64,000 bases of DNA from Candidatus Fibrimonadaceae bacterium (GTDB lineage Bacteria > Fibrobacterota > Fibrobacteria > Fibrobacterales > Fibrobacteraceae): NCBI GenBank assembly GCA_031281265.1, contig JAITFO010000015.1, positions 1-64,000 of the forward strand. Direction: 5' to 3'. The translations under genes and the position numbers were made by a program. The notes beneath the pieces are model-generated. The model did not search any database. It saw only the letters and a list, made by a program, of their open reading frames with translations, and was not told the DNA's origin. Numbering within the stretch: the first letter of the stretch is position 1; every line of letters starts with the position of its first letter. Below, piece after piece: positions 21,122 to 64,000 of this stretch.

Positions 21122-21257
21122 ATCTCAATGGTAAATATAGTAAACGCCACTGTTTTACCGGACAATAGTGAGTAAACACCGATTAATCTCCCAATATCCT
21201 TCAAAGTTTTGTCAAAAAATTATATATTTTATTAAATTTCAAAATGGAGACAAAAAA

Positions 21258-21950
21258 ATGAGAACACAATTCTCTAAAATTGCGTTAGCGGCAGGCATTA
21301 TGCTTGCTATGGCATTTACTTTTTCCTGCTCATCGGGCAGCGGAGACGACAACAATGGCGGCAACGGTGGCGGTTCTTGCAGTATAAATGGTGGAACTGT
21401 TAAAATTGGCAGCCAAACTTGGATGGCGGAGAATTTGAACTGTAATGTTGCAGGTAGCAAATGTGGTGGAACAGACCAGCAAACTGGGGAAGACGAAGGA
21501 CACCTATATACATATTATCCTCTTGAAGATAAAAATACTGTGAACTGCGATAAATACGGACGTCTTTACAACTGGGTAGCAGCGAAGTCTGCTTGTCCTA
21601 GCGGTTGGCATTTACCGAGCGATGATGAATGGGAAGTACTCGTAAATTTTGTTGGAGGTGCATCTACCGCAGGAACTAAATTGAAGGCAACTAGTGGCTG
21701 GTACAACGATGGCGTAGATGGCAATGGCACGAATGAGTCTGGCTTTTCTGCCCTGCCGAGCGGTGCTGGCTATTCGGATGGCGATTTCAGCGTTTTCAAC
21801 GATGATGGCATACGCGGTTATTGGTGGAGTGCCAGTGAGTACAATAGCCACGACGCCTACCTCAGGGACATGAGCTACAGCCGCGAGTATGTCAACCACT
21901 ACTACTACGATAAGAGCAGTTTTTATAGCGTTCGTTGCATCAAGGACTAG
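21258..21950 (+). CDS. FISUMP-domain lipoprotein (paralog 1)
   Basis: Lipobox FSCSS; VKIGSQTWMAENLN, YGRLYNW, CPSGWHLPSDDEWEVL, GYWWSASEYN, SVRCIKD. Confidence 0.92.
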   Translation: MRTQFSKIALAAGIMLAMAFTFSCSSGSGDDNNGGNGGGSCSINGGTVKIGSQTWMAENLNCNVAGSKCGGTDQQTGEDEGHLYTYYPLEDKNTVNCDKYGRLYNWVAAKSACPSGWHLPSDDEWEVLVNFVGGASTAGTKLKATSGWYNDGVDGNGTNESGFSALPSGAGYSDGDFSVFNDDGIRGYWWSASEYNSHDAYLRDMSYSREYVNHYYYDKSSFYSVRCIKD

Positions 21951-24605: not shown

Positions 24606-25247
24606 ATGAAAAAAGCTATAATATTGCTGGTGTTGCTCGGCGCAATAGTATTGCTGGCGTTGTTTGGCACAGAAATTTTTATGCAAAAAAATGATATTTT
24701 TATCGATTCCAGAGATGAAAAAAAATACAGAATCGTTAAAATAGGTACTCAGACTTGGATGGCGGAGAACTTGAACCACAATGCAAGCGGTTCAAAATGC
24801 TACGACAACAAACCTGAAAACTGCGATAAATACGGCAGATTGTATGATTGGGGCACAGCGAAGAATGTTTGCCCAAACGGTTGGCATTTGCCGAGCAATG
24901 ATGAATGGGATGTTCTATACCACTACGTAGATGGCACAAGCGGTACGGAAAGCCCTTATGAAAGCGAGACAGCTGGCAAATACTTGAAATCAAAAAATGA
25001 CTGGAAAGATTATGAAGGGAGACCTGGCAACGGGGAAGATAAATTTGGCTTTTCTGCTCTTCCGGGCGGTAGCGGTTATTCTTATGGCGTATATTATGAT
25101 ATTGGCTATGATGGCTACTGGTGGAGTGCCAATGAGCACACTAACTACAACGCTTACAGCCGGCGCATATACTACTACAACGACCACGCCATCTGGTATT
25201 ATGGCGATAGGAATTTCTTGCACAGCGTTCGCTGCATCAAGAATTGA
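24606..25247 (+). CDS. FISUMP-domain protein (paralog 2)
   Basis: Signal anchor; VKIGTQTWMAENLNHNASGSKCY, YGRLYDW, CPNGWHLPSNDEWDVL, GYWWSANEH, SVRCIKN. Confidence 0.92.
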   Translation: MKKAIILLVLLGAIVLLALFGTEIFMQKNDIFIDSRDEKKYRIVKIGTQTWMAENLNHNASGSKCYDNKPENCDKYGRLYDWGTAKNVCPNGWHLPSNDEWDVLYHYVDGTSGTESPYESETAGKYLKSKNDWKDYEGRPGNGEDKFGFSALPGGSGYSYGVYYDIGYDGYWWSANEHTNYNAYSRRIYYYNDHAIWYYGDRNFLHSVRCIKN

Positions 25248-35545: not shown

Positions 35546-36544
35546 ATGAGAATCTGCCCCTTGTTTGCTAAACTGGCAGCCTTTGGGCTTGCTATGGCTT
35601 TAACCTTTGGCTGCTCATCGGAGGGTAACAACAATAGCGGCGGCGGTGGCGTGGTATGGAATACAACCTATTGCGTTGTTGAAAGCATGGGACTTTGCGT
35701 GACTGGCTTGACTGGCAAGCAATGCAGAGATGAAGGATACAAAGGGTATGATGGCTATTTTGATACAGAATGTCCTTCCGGCTATGACAAAGTAACAGTT
35801 TCGGGCGTTTCCTCCTCGTCCGGCGGTAGCGGTTCTAGCAGTTCCGCAACTGGCAACGTCGTCTCGTCTTCGTCCGGTGGCGGTAGCAACCCTGTAGGTT
35901 CATCTTCGTCAAGGGGCGGCGGTATTGTTTACGGAGTTGATGTATCTTATCAGGACGAGATTTACAAGACGGTTAAGATAGGCAACCAAACTTGGTTCCA
36001 GCGTAATTTGAATTACAATGCAAGTGGTAGCAAGTGTGGCAATGGCGGCAGCCTTAGCGATGCGAATACTACAACTTGCGATACCTATGGCAGGCTTTAC
36101 GACTGGGCTACGGCAATGGCACTGCCTTCCAAATGCAATAGTATTCTATCCACAAGCGATGCCGATTGTGCTATAACAACTCCCAACCATCGTGGCATTT
36201 GCCCCAGTGGTTGGCATATACCAAGCGATGCGGATTGGGAAGCGTTGATGACAGCAGTTGGCGGTTCTGGAACAGCGGGAACCAAATTGAAAGCCAATTC
36301 TGATTTGTGGGTCAGCAATGGCAAAGGCACGGACAATTACGGGTTTTCCGCTCTGCCGGGCGGCTACGGCGGTTCCGGTGGCTATTTCGGCAATGTCGGC
36401 AGCAACGGCTTCTGGTGGAGTGCCTCGGAGTACAATGCTAACTACGCCTACCGCCGGGACATGTACTACAGCTACGAGAACGTCAACTGGGACTACAACG
36501 ATAAGAGCAACTACTTGTTCAGTGTTCGTTGTCTCCAGGACTAG
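35546..36544 (+). CDS. FISUMP-domain lipoprotein (paralog 3) with Ser/Gly-rich linker
   Basis: Lipobox TFGCSS; SSSSGGSGSSSS linker; VKIGNQTWFQRNLNYNASGSKC, YGRLYDW, CPSGWHIPSDADWEAL, GFWWSASEYN, SVRCLQD. Confidence 0.92.
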   Translation: MRICPLFAKLAAFGLAMALTFGCSSEGNNNSGGGGVVWNTTYCVVESMGLCVTGLTGKQCRDEGYKGYDGYFDTECPSGYDKVTVSGVSSSSGGSGSSSSATGNVVSSSSGGGSNPVGSSSSRGGGIVYGVDVSYQDEIYKTVKIGNQTWFQRNLNYNASGSKCGNGGSLSDANTTTCDTYGRLYDWATAMALPSKCNSILSTSDADCAITTPNHRGICPSGWHIPSDADWEALMTAVGGSGTAGTKLKANSDLWVSNGKGTDNYGFSALPGGYGGSGGYFGNVGSNGFWWSASEYNANYAYRRDMYYSYENVNWDYNDKSNYLFSVRCLQD

Positions 36545-60020: not shown

Positions 60021-60680
60021 ATGACATATTTCCTTCTATCAATTACAAACAGATGCAATAAGGCTTGCAATTACTGCGTTGTAAAACCCTGGCTTAACAA
60101 CCATGATTTTCCCGATAAAATTACTGCTACGGATTTAATTTCATTTTTGGAAAAAGAGTTTTGTGAAGGCGATGTGGTTGAGCTTACTGGCGGAGAGCCT
60201 ACTTTATTCCGTGAACTAGAAACGCTTTTAGATTGGCTAAAAGAACATGGCGCAAAGGTTATCATCCGGACTAATGGCCTGAATCTTCGCGAGCGGCGAA
60301 AAAAATATGATAACATCGTGGTTGTTCTTGCTAAACACGACAGCTCCGACAGCTACATGAGCGAGCGCAAAACCTATTTACTGCCACATGATTTAGTCCT
60401 TGACGCTATACCGGATAGCATAAAACAGAAAGAGGGAGGCAAGCCTATATTTATTCCTAGCAATGAAAGCCCGTACACTTCCCATCCGTTTACGCGGAGC
60501 TTATTCATTTCCGCGGACGGCAAGGTGAAGGCTATGGCGTGTTGCTCGGTGGATATGGGTACAGTTTGGGATTATAAGTTGTTAAAATATCAAATGTGCG
60601 ACAAATGCGATACTATGCTCGGCGCGTGGAATTTGATTAACCGGATAGGGAATAAAACTTTTAAAAAGGAGGTAGCGTAA
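60021..60680 (+). CDS. Radical SAM protein encoded in the prophage
   Basis: ITNRCNKACNYCVV (CxxxCxxC), VVELTGGEPTLFRELETLL, IIRTNGLN; C-terminal Cys cluster ACCSVDMG...MCDKCDTMLGAW. Confidence 0.92.
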   Translation: MTYFLLSITNRCNKACNYCVVKPWLNNHDFPDKITATDLISFLEKEFCEGDVVELTGGEPTLFRELETLLDWLKEHGAKVIIRTNGLNLRERRKKYDNIVVVLAKHDSSDSYMSERKTYLLPHDLVLDAIPDSIKQKEGGKPIFIPSNESPYTSHPFTRSLFISADGKVKAMACCSVDMGTVWDYKLLKYQMCDKCDTMLGAWNLINRIGNKTFKKEVA

Positions 60681-61057: not shown

Positions 61058-61515
61058 TAAAAGTATATGATTTTACCGGTTCGCAAATAATAACCGAGTT
61101 TGCCGGGCAGGACTTGTGGCGTTTGAAAGAACTGGTGACCGTCAGCGTGTTCACTGATGAAGGCACGCTCCGCTACACGATGTTTCGTAAATTCCCAACC
61201 AATATGCGCAGCGGCTCCCACGCCATAGACTGGCTCATTCCAAAATTCACGGGGAACAATAAATATAATCTGGCGATTCTCTGCCACGATTTCGCGTACA
61301 CAAAACTGCCAAGCGGGGAAAATCCCATAAGCCGTGAACTGGCAGATGAGCTTCTTAGGCAGATGTGCATTTTATCCGGTGAGCTTGGAAGTGTGCGAGC
61401 TGGTATAATGTATAGGGCTTTGCGTATAGGCGGAAGTTCCGCATACGATTCGGAAAATGCCGGCGATTATAAAGATGCTGGGGAATATATGGATTTTAAA
61501 TGGGGGCACAAATGA
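61054..61515 (+). CDS. DUF1353 phage protein
   Basis: RNLRE-like KFPTNMRSGSHAIDWLIPKFTGNNKYNLAILCHDFAYTK. Confidence 0.75.
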   Translation: MIKVYDFTGSQIITEFAGQDLWRLKELVTVSVFTDEGTLRYTMFRKFPTNMRSGSHAIDWLIPKFTGNNKYNLAILCHDFAYTKLPSGENPISRELADELLRQMCILSGELGSVRAGIMYRALRIGGSSAYDSENAGDYKDAGEYMDFKWGHK

Positions 61516-61919
61516 ATATAAACGACATAATGCCACCTGATTGGCAATTGTTCAACTACTCGTTTGCAAGCTTTGATAAAAATCTTTTGACGATATATCT
61601 AAAGGTTAAGGCATTATTTCCTGAATTGTGGGTAAATGTAAAAGATGGCAAGCGCGTAAATAACTGGTGCGGTTTACGCTCGCCTTCCTGCGCAATAGGC
61701 GCTCCAAAATCTGCGCACCGGAGCGGCAAGGCTTTGGACTTGCATCATACAGATATTAAAGCGCTCCGCTCCTGGTGTATGTCATTTGAGGGCCTGAAAG
61801 CAGGTATTTTGCGAGTGGAAGCTGAGAGTGCTACGCCCACTTGGGTGCATATCGACGTGATTCAGCCTAATCCTGAAAGGTGGAAAGATAAAAGCGTTCC
61901 CTATGTATTTATGCCGTGA
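61500..61919 (+). CDS. M15-like peptidase, probable endolysin
   Basis: GLRSPSCAIGAPKSAHRSGKALDLHHTD ... WVHIDVIQ zinc-site pattern. Confidence 0.72.
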   Translation: MGAQMNINDIMPPDWQLFNYSFASFDKNLLTIYLKVKALFPELWVNVKDGKRVNNWCGLRSPSCAIGAPKSAHRSGKALDLHHTDIKALRSWCMSFEGLKAGILRVEAESATPTWVHIDVIQPNPERWKDKSVPYVFMP

Positions 61920-62411
61920 TTAGCTTTTCCAGAATTTTTCTATTGCTTTTTCGTTTTTGAAAGAGGTTGTCGTTTTCAAAATCCAAGGATTTTTTTTGTC
62001 CGTCTCGTAAGCGATGCAAACATCCGCTGCGCTTGTTTCTTTTTCATTTTCGGATTCAAATAATTCAATAGAGTTATTGACAATATTAACAAACCAACCA
62101 AGTTTCTCAAATTCTTTTCTATGCTTTTCTATCAGCTCCTTTAAATTTAACTGGCTTTTAGCGTCTTTGGATTTTTCTTCAACGATATAACTAACCGCAT
62201 CGCTTTCCGAAGCGATTTCAGTTTTGGATAAGCTAAAGCCTATGATTCTATCGGCTGCCTCGAAATAGGCATACAGCATATTTTTATTGTCGTCAATTTT
62301 TCTGGGAACTACTTCCCTGACCGTCCCAGGCTGCGAACCGCCAAAGTATTTTATCTTTATCACCTGGCCAGTGCTTATGGCTTCGCGGAAAATTTCTGTT
62401 TTGTCTTTCAT
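61920..62411 (-). CDS. WYL-like domain protein
   Basis: REAISTGQVIKIKYFGGSQPGTVREVVPRKIDDNKNMLYAYFEAADRIIGFSLSKTEI. Confidence 0.6.
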   Translation of the reverse strand: MKDKTEIFREAISTGQVIKIKYFGGSQPGTVREVVPRKIDDNKNMLYAYFEAADRIIGFSLSKTEIASESDAVSYIVEEKSKDAKSQLNLKELIEKHRKEFEKLGWFVNIVNNSIELFESENEKETSAADVCIAYETDKKNPWILKTTTSFKNEKAIEKFWKS

Positions 62412-63616
62412 ATTTTATCCTCAATTTTTATGCAGCGTACAGATAGCAAGTGAGATTTTCTAAAATAACTAATAATAATTTTATCTTTTAAATAATCCAT
62501 ATAGCAGCATGGCATATTTCTTTCATCATTTTTTACAATTTCTTCCTCTGGATCAATAATTTCTTTTTTTGTTGATTTTGATTTTTCAGATATCCACCAA
62601 TATCCGCATCCATTCAAATTTTCGCAGTCCTTGGAATCTAGTACATATAAAACATTGGGATTTCTAACACTAGCCATACCACCCGGAAGCGCATTAAATC
62701 CTACCGCATCTGCTCCATTGCCTATTGGCTTTCCAAAAAAATCGCTCCACCCTTCTTTAGATTTTAATTGCAATCCCGCATACTCATAATGTTTTATTTC
62801 CAATATCCCATTAGCTTCTAGCGTAACTGCATATTTTATAAGCCTGTTCCAATCTTCTTCACTTGGCAAACGCCATCCAGCTGGACAAGAATTTTTCGCC
62901 GTTTCCCAGTTGTATAGACGACCATATTTTTCTTCATTATCTGGATTGTCATTGTAGCATCTGCTGCCTTTGGCATTGTAAGCTAAATTTTCAGCCATCC
63001 AAATGTCCGTTTTAACTTTTAAAGTATCTTCATCCGCATAACTAAATTTAAAAGTTTTGTATTTCTTGCCATCACGTTTATCAATAAATGAATCCAATTC
63101 TATGATATTACCTTTTGGCAGCATAGACTTGTCAAAAGGTATATCATCTTCTGGTTCCCAATCTTCTGGAATTTTTATATCAGCAACATTGAATGTCTGG
63201 GTTCTATTTGCTTTCAAATCATGAGCACGTAATTTTCTGTTATCAGCTTCACCTATAACTTTAGTACCATATATATGAATATCTTTAACATTGTATATAG
63301 TTCCCATTTTTGAATCATTTTTGTACCACTTAATTCTTAAAGTTTCTCCTGTTTTTTCAGCATTTAATAAAATTTCCGTTTTCTTTGAATTGATTTTTGT
63401 CTCTACTGGAGCCATTCCTTCAATTTCAATTTTATCTATAAAAAATATCTTTTCAATTTTAGAAAAAGCATCTAAACATATTATTTGCTCTCTATTTAAT
63501 ATTTTTTTAGGAATTATGTCTATAACTTTTCCGGGCTCTGATCCACCATTGTATTTTATTTTAATTGCATTCCTTGTTTCTACGGCATCTTTAAGTATAT
63601 TTCCTCTGGATTTCAT
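62408..63616 (-). CDS. WYL-like N-terminal region fused to a C-terminal FISUMP domain
   Basis: N: DAVETRNAIKIKYNGGSEPGKVIDIIPKKILNREQIICLDAFSKIEKIFFIDKIE; C: TDIWMAENLAYNAKGSRCYND...YGRLYNWETAKNSCPAGWRLPSEEDWNRLI...GYWWIS...LLSVRCIK. Confidence 0.8.
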   Translation of the reverse strand: MKSRGNILKDAVETRNAIKIKYNGGSEPGKVIDIIPKKILNREQIICLDAFSKIEKIFFIDKIEIEGMAPVETKINSKKTEILLNAEKTGETLRIKWYKNDSKMGTIYNVKDIHIYGTKVIGEADNRKLRAHDLKANRTQTFNVADIKIPEDWEPEDDIPFDKSMLPKGNIIELDSFIDKRDGKKYKTFKFSYADEDTLKVKTDIWMAENLAYNAKGSRCYNDNPDNEEKYGRLYNWETAKNSCPAGWRLPSEEDWNRLIKYAVTLEANGILEIKHYEYAGLQLKSKEGWSDFFGKPIGNGADAVGFNALPGGMASVRNPNVLYVLDSKDCENLNGCGYWWISEKSKSTKKEIIDPEEEIVKNDERNMPCCYMDYLKDKIIISYFRKSHLLSVRCIKIEDKI

Positions 63617-63881: not shown

Positions 63882-64000
63882 ATGAAAAACGACAAACGTT
63901 CTTTTGTGGGCATTGATATATCCAAGGATACTTTCAATGCCTATTGGGAAAACTGCGACAAAAAGTATTCCAACAACCGGAAGGGTTGGAATATGCTTTT
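63882..64000 (+). mobile_element. IS110-family transposase, N-terminus (truncated by window end)
   Basis: MKNDKRSFVGIDISKDTFNAYWENCDKKYSNNRKGWNMLF, DEDD-type N-terminal motif. Confidence 0.85.

Follow-up and report, generated by a model that had tools for sequence, protein, structure and literature searches.

At the right end of a siphovirus-type prophage, in the 64,000-nucleotide stretch of Candidatus Fibrimonadaceae bacterium DNA analysed here (the window), we found a gene that fuses two WYL-like domains to a FISUMP domain, is predicted to act in the cytoplasm and forms a translationally coupled pair with another WYL gene. An orthologous protein is encoded by the viral contig L049 (IMGVR_UViG_3300002449_000021), and WYL-FISUMP is a real protein design, of which two examples are known. 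FISUMP domains, which are assumed to work outside the cell, have multiplied enormously in Fibrobacterota: this draft genome alone has 83 matches. Here a FISUMP is phage-borne, predicted to be cytoplasmic and fused to WYL, and another phage has its orthologue, which suggests recruitment of the domain for a function within the cell.

The fusion gene (62408-63616, minus strand; GC 32%) is an intact open reading frame of 402 codons, and its ATG is preceded by the Shine-Dalgarno-like sequence AAAGGAG. The 402-aa product consists of a first WYL domain with the GGSEPG variant (63410-63604, minus strand; residues ~5-69), a second WYL-like domain, which is a degenerate repeat with a longer loop (63167-63385, minus strand; residues ~78-150), and a FISUMP domain (62426-63091, minus strand; residues 176-397), which contains a charged insert rich in Lys and Glu and resembles phage FISUMP models. 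Neither a hydrophobic N-terminus nor a membrane segment was found in the protein by hydropathy (19-residue maximum 1.08; N-terminal 12-residue maximum 0.73), in line with the original prediction that it lacks an export signal. The accompanying claim that the window's three other FISUMP proteins are exported or anchored also held, as those at 21168-21950 and 35546-36544 are lipobox proteins and that at 24606-25247 has an N-terminal membrane anchor. We also considered whether integration had split a single gene into the fusion and the FISUMP gene on the left flank (35546-36544); this was rejected, because the two lie on opposite strands and each domain is complete. A promoter and terminator scan gave hits at chance level only.

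The FISUMP domain was matched far above the curated cut-offs by both PF09603 (5e-27; 95.8 versus 33.9 bits) and TIGR02145 (3e-33; 115.9 versus 41.65 bits). The core following GF.ALPGG showed a GC fraction of 0.31 and an NNC codon fraction of 0.10, compared with 0.47-0.56 and 0.42-0.58, respectively, in the four other FISUMPs examined on the contig, which agrees with the earlier description of an AT-rich variable core lacking the NNC pattern. An RVT_1 reverse transcriptase was not found in the genome (assembly 77.6% complete), nor was a template-like (TR) copy of the core. On these three grounds, the candidate explanation that the fusion is the variable protein of a diversity-generating retroelement (DGR), or that its core originated from one, was discarded. 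The idea of a fixed, repurposed copy therefore fits the data, given also that the domain falls within the secreted FISUMPs of the genus (see below). Of 74 scorable FISUMP domains, 56 have a common Cys pair, whose second member is absent from both the window fusion and its L049 orthologue; the latter has also lost the last FISUMP Cys. These losses are consistent with a reducing compartment but are supportive only, since some secreted FISUMPs also lack the second Cys. Among solved structures, the FISUMP domain matched snake-venom C-type lectins weakly (E 0.06, prob 0.5-0.7).

Both WYL segments were supported by profiles and by predicted folds, as the original prediction of a fusion with two WYL-like segments had it. 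The first matched phrog_8498, a phage family of unassigned function (2.6e-8, residues 6-69), and scored 54 bits against a profile of nine GGSxPG modules from which the fusion protein had been left out. The second (segment 74-165) reached 22-28.8 bits with profiles that do not contain it, whereas the best of 2000 shuffles of the segment reached 8.8 bits, or 11.6 with the profile including the N-terminal module. The PADLOC WYL model matched the fusion protein weakly (0.0023), while Pfam WYL (PF13280) gave no match in it, 12.3 bits in the partner protein and 27.7 bits, against a curated cut-off of 21.8, in the L049 orthologue. In the AlphaFold model, residues 1-70 had a pLDDT of ~90, with DriD, BrxR and CapW as the closest solved structures. 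Modelled separately, the second domain had a pLDDT of 80 and was closest to CapW, BrxR and PafBC (E ~2e-3, TMq 0.6-0.7); this model was built from an alignment to WYL modules and is thus partly dependent on the profile result. The arrangement of the linker and second WYL domain in the full-length model was not confident. Overall, both segments are predicted to have the SH3-like WYL fold, and their best solved matches are WYL proteins.

No helix-turn-helix (HTH) was found in the fusion protein by Pfam, NCBIfam or the AlphaFold model, and the N-terminal winged HTH (wHTH) of WYL transcription factors is thus absent. Residues mapped by motif, without superposition, showed that the REIxP Arg, conserved in nearly all relatives and in all the other N-terminal modules compared, is replaced by I in the first and Y in the second WYL domain of the fusion. 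It is retained in the partner protein and in the first WYL domain of the L049 orthologue. In the RxFRxxK motif, mapped in the same way, R3 is replaced by F and N, respectively, and K0 and K6 are retained only in the first domain. Judged from these residues, the conserved basic ligand groove appears to be missing from the fusion's WYL domains, and the absence of the REIxP Arg from both makes classical ligand sensing by them doubtful.

The fusion gene does not stand alone; it opens a pair of coupled WYL genes, and the same holds in the second phage. The partner gene (61920-62411, minus strand), which overlaps the fusion gene at an ATGA, encodes a 163-aa protein with a WYL module and a C-terminal domain (phrog_8498 1.6e-14; PADLOC WYL 1e-4). 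The adjoining prophage (~36748-61919, plus strand; ends approximate) carries genes for replication initiation, ParB, terminase, DnaB, portal, protease, capsid, tail (including a tail measure protein) and lysis, the last of them encoding an endolysin-like M15 peptidase (61500-61919, plus strand; phrog_894 5e-7). The WYL pair lies at the right prophage end, beyond this last phage gene and on the opposite strand. Upstream of the fusion gene is an IS110-family transposase gene (63882-64859, plus strand, running past the window end at 64000; PF02371 4e-21, PF01548 1e-13), which confirms the placement of the fusion between a prophage end and an IS110. The GC content is 32% for the fusion gene, 37% for the partner and 45.5% for the prophage; this AT-richness, together with the extreme position and the opposite strand, is typical of morons. 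The two prophage flanks shared only 10-bp repeats at chance level as possible attachment sites. Five homologous endolysin loci were read by their open reading frames, and the genes past the endolysin, or past one more gene, looked like host genes. One of the five, which belongs to a different prophage in this genome (G000:C113; L232:60-1221), has an ordinary secreted FISUMP gene directly after its endolysin gene, at the site matching that of the window's WYL pair, which points to a plausible capture route. As a separate observation, the lysis region of the window prophage encodes a radical SAM protein (60021-60680; PADLOC pVip 2e-12; NCBIfam viperin 39.8 bits versus a cut-off of 180), which is more likely a generic radical SAM moron than a prokaryotic viperin.

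The L049 orthologue, which was found with a degenerate DNA pattern for YxGGSQPG, shows that the fusion is not a one-off. This 660-aa protein has the order WYL (above the Pfam cut-off), Cys-rich linker, FISUMP (PF09603 2.5e-25) and C-terminal WYL-like segment (44 bits), and neither a signal peptide nor a membrane segment is obvious in it. A second WYL gene, coding for a protein with a hydrophobic stretch at its C-terminus, begins 11 nt after the L049 fusion, and terminase genes come next. The FISUMP parts of the two fusions are 42-50% identical (43% over 246 alignment columns, 186 bits), and in a comparison with the window FISUMP by one and the same method, the L049 domain (155 bits) outscored the best bacterial FISUMP (122 bits). 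In a tree of 77 rows, the two were sisters (99/91), with L007 of the same genus adjoining (98/94) and the group placed among the FISUMPs of the genus; both fusion branches are long, and long-branch attraction is possible. The common architecture, gene order and charged insert agree in pointing to a single origin of the two fusions, and the nesting of the sister domains among the genus's secreted FISUMPs suggests one FISUMP capture followed by phage spread. The identity of 42-50%, with identical gene order in another phage, further argues for long-term selection. Searches for more fusions returned no relative in a scan of the genome contigs with the fusion protein, only an ordinary Bacteroidales FISUMP and the known GUT307 WYL gene in a contig scan with the fusion alignment, only distant FISUMPs for the fusion protein and nothing for P0002 in the phage collection, nothing in a viral scan with a three-sequence WYL alignment, and only L049 again, plus FISUMPs without WYL, in further viral scans.

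Other FISUMP domains were encountered in phages. A phage diversity-generating retroelement (L145:4690-8671; IMGVR_UViG_3300002552_000056) includes a tail-fibre-like protein with a terminal FISUMP domain; its downstream open reading frame runs through the template repeat into the reverse transcriptase (PF00078 3e-21), and 15 of the 17 differences between template and variable repeats are at template adenines. A 1288-aa phage tail-tip (J-like) protein (L146:3481-7344) contains an internal FISUMP domain. At L049:6423-8426, a primase-like open reading frame and a FISUMP lipoprotein gene are both truncated at a head-to-head overlap, which is either a recombination junction or an assembly chimera.

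The WYL module itself is sporadic. Matches to phrog_8498 occurred in 4 of 168 Fibrobacterota genomes, the window copy being the only FISUMP fusion among them, and several module genes in Fibrobacterota prophages adjoin XRE repressors. Another prophage of this genome has the module in convergent orientation to an XRE gene (L043). Elsewhere the module follows an XRE gene as a membrane segment-WYL-BRCT fusion (L040:607-1695, G025; WYL 1e-7, BRCT 3e-5), is partly masked in GUT307 (L039), and in G011 (L044) lies in the order XRE-WYL-TIR/SieB-membrane protein-SIR2-2TM, close to an integrase. Fusions of WYL to BRCT are already known (PMC4012209). The prophage immunity region of G011 (L044:909-7998, G011:C114), with a TIR+SieB fusion (PF10137 8e-35, PF14163 3e-12), SIR2-like and 2TM/SLATT-like genes and, by reading, PIN-like genes and a tyrosine integrase, resembles a defence cluster. 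In about 40 viral contigs, the module comes with various extensions. An E. coli relative was present in 52 of 5426 genomes, annotated as 'hypothetical' or 'WYL domain-containing protein', and the E. coli prophage copies lie between putative antiterminator (by reading) and DNA methylase genes. A phage WYL subfamily with CxxC motifs and C-terminal hydrophobic segments was also seen beside terminase genes (L049:2332-3402, L072:4447-5685, L147:3169-4122). For the suggested role in phage-defence regulation, the G011 WYL gene with the TIR/SieB-SIR2-2TM cluster speaks in favour, but other WYL genes lie beside terminase genes, the fusion has no HTH and the REIxP Arg is lost, leaving the link indirect.

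What might the pair do? The reading that we tentatively favour, although at somewhat less than an even chance, is a cytoplasmic two-protein exclusion or defence moron with FISUMP as the binding head. The prophage accessory operon would produce, from its two coupled genes, two cytoplasmic proteins with a common WYL module, the first of which also bears a FISUMP domain probably captured from the secreted adhesin-like proteins of the host genus. This C-type-lectin-type head would recognise a target in the cytoplasm, which most likely belongs to a competing phage or to the host machinery used by such a phage. The WYL domains of both proteins would assemble the complex, those whose basic residues are retained (in the partner) may have nucleic acid or nucleotides as ligands, and the net effect would be superinfection exclusion or defence for the lysogen. 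The loss of the Arg in the fusion and its retention in the partner suggest this division, with the fusion WYLs serving assembly with the partner, the partner perhaps binding nucleic acid and FISUMP acting as the recognition head. The moron-like position, the AT-richness and the TIR/SieB/SIR2 cluster around the G011 relative favour the reading. The retention of the pair in a second phage, the monophyly of the FISUMP parts (99/91) among the genus's secreted FISUMPs, the ssDNA sensing or defence regulation by WYLs elsewhere (PMC11804915, PMC9122588, PMC4012209), the proposals of cytoplasmic C-type-lectin conflict systems (PMC10907252, PMC7159879) and the Cys loss in both fusions also count for it. 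Counted against it are the pair's want of an enzymatic or toxic effector, the L049, L072 and L147 WYL genes that sit by terminase genes with no defence cluster, the missing REIxP Arg in both fusion WYLs, the mere two fusions known in all, the weak C-type-lectin likeness (E 0.06) and the Cys loss in some secreted FISUMPs. A broader proposal, which we regard as rather speculative, is that phages took a binding head from the large family of variable surface proteins of their host, relocated it to the cytoplasm and joined it to WYL domains, creating two-protein phage-versus-phage recognition as a phage-borne equivalent of the cytoplasmic lectin-type antigen sensors of multicellular bacteria.

A serious rival to the exclusion or defence moron is a replication or packaging regulator, that is, a WYL pair that serves the phage itself, in replication, late transcription or the packaging switch, and whose FISUMP provides a protein-protein contact. 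This is unlikely on balance, although the WYL genes just upstream of terminase genes in L049, L072 and L147, the E. coli relatives between putative antiterminator and methylase genes and the module genes beside XRE repressors speak for it; the sporadic distribution, the homologous loci that end without such genes, the convergence of the window pair to the late operon and the lack of an HTH argue otherwise. Counter-defence is improbable: Arg-less WYLs would compete as decoys with host CapW/BrxR-type regulators, or FISUMP would titrate a host factor, as the lost Arg in both WYLs and the closest folds (regulators such as DriD, BrxR and CapW) might suggest, but the L049 orthologue retains the Arg in its first WYL. 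We give just as little credence to the view that the captured gene has no function and is decaying after a chance fusion at a prophage end amid abundant host FISUMP genes. The 83 genomic matches, the FISUMP gene right after the endolysin in the G000:C113 prophage and the degenerate second WYL domain are compatible with decay, whereas the open frame, ribosome-binding site, coupled partner and L049 orthologue, with its 42-50% FISUMP identity and conserved gene order, are not easily reconciled with it. A surface or virion protein using a missed or non-classical export route is very improbable, because even though FISUMPs occur in other phages as tail-fibre tips or lipoproteins (L145, L146, L149), no signal peptide or membrane segment was found in the fusion and none is obvious in the orthologue, the WYL domains studied to date act in the cytoplasm, and Cys has been lost.

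Compared with known systems, the exclusion or defence moron proposed here combines familiar parts. WYL domains bind ssDNA or other nucleic acid via conserved arginines, as in PafBC (PMC11804915), regulate defence operons, as in CapW (PMC9122588), and are often duplicated or found in neighbouring genes, with Sm-like assemblies being possible (PMC4012209). The predicted fold of both fusion WYLs is like that of DriD, PafBC, CapW and BrxR, but no wHTH was found, the conserved Arg is missing and no promoter role is known. Like the fusions of Makarova et al. 2014 (PMC4012209), whose listed partners are Cas3, HNH, Mrr, exoRNase, helicase, AbiGII, BRCT and TerB, the present protein joins an SH3-like WYL, in two copies or adjacent WYL genes, to another domain; its partner, however, is a binding domain rather than an enzyme or HTH, and neither lectin nor FISUMP is in the list printed in that text. 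Phrog_8498 and E. coli prophage WYL proteins, of unassigned function, resemble the partner in domain plan and have the GGSxPG module, while FISUMP is added here. Known FISUMPs (Fib_succ_major; TIGR02145, PF09603) are inferred to be extracytoplasmic (PMC4704652) or are DGR-diversified (PMC4159848); the C-terminal FISUMP of the fusion is closest to the genus's secreted copies but is predicted to be cytoplasmic and is AT-rich, with a charged insert and no NNC pattern. For conflict systems, it has been proposed that cytoplasmic C-type-lectin domains sense antigens or act as neutralising effectors (PMC10907252, PMC7159879); there too, a lectin-type head is used within the cell and is preceded in the protein by other domains. 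Those sensors are of the FGE/FGS type, DGR-diversified and coupled to STAND/MoxR NTPases, whereas the fusion is phage-borne and has neither NTPase nor DGR. No description of a WYL-FISUMP fusion was found in the full texts searched, which are largely open-access. Precedents exist for WYL fusions and for cytoplasmic lectin-type sensors, and the combination WYL-FISUMP appears to be new, adding a binding domain to the known WYL fusion partners, which are mostly enzymes or DNA-binding domains, and offering in its two-gene pair a tractable system for finding what FISUMP heads bind.
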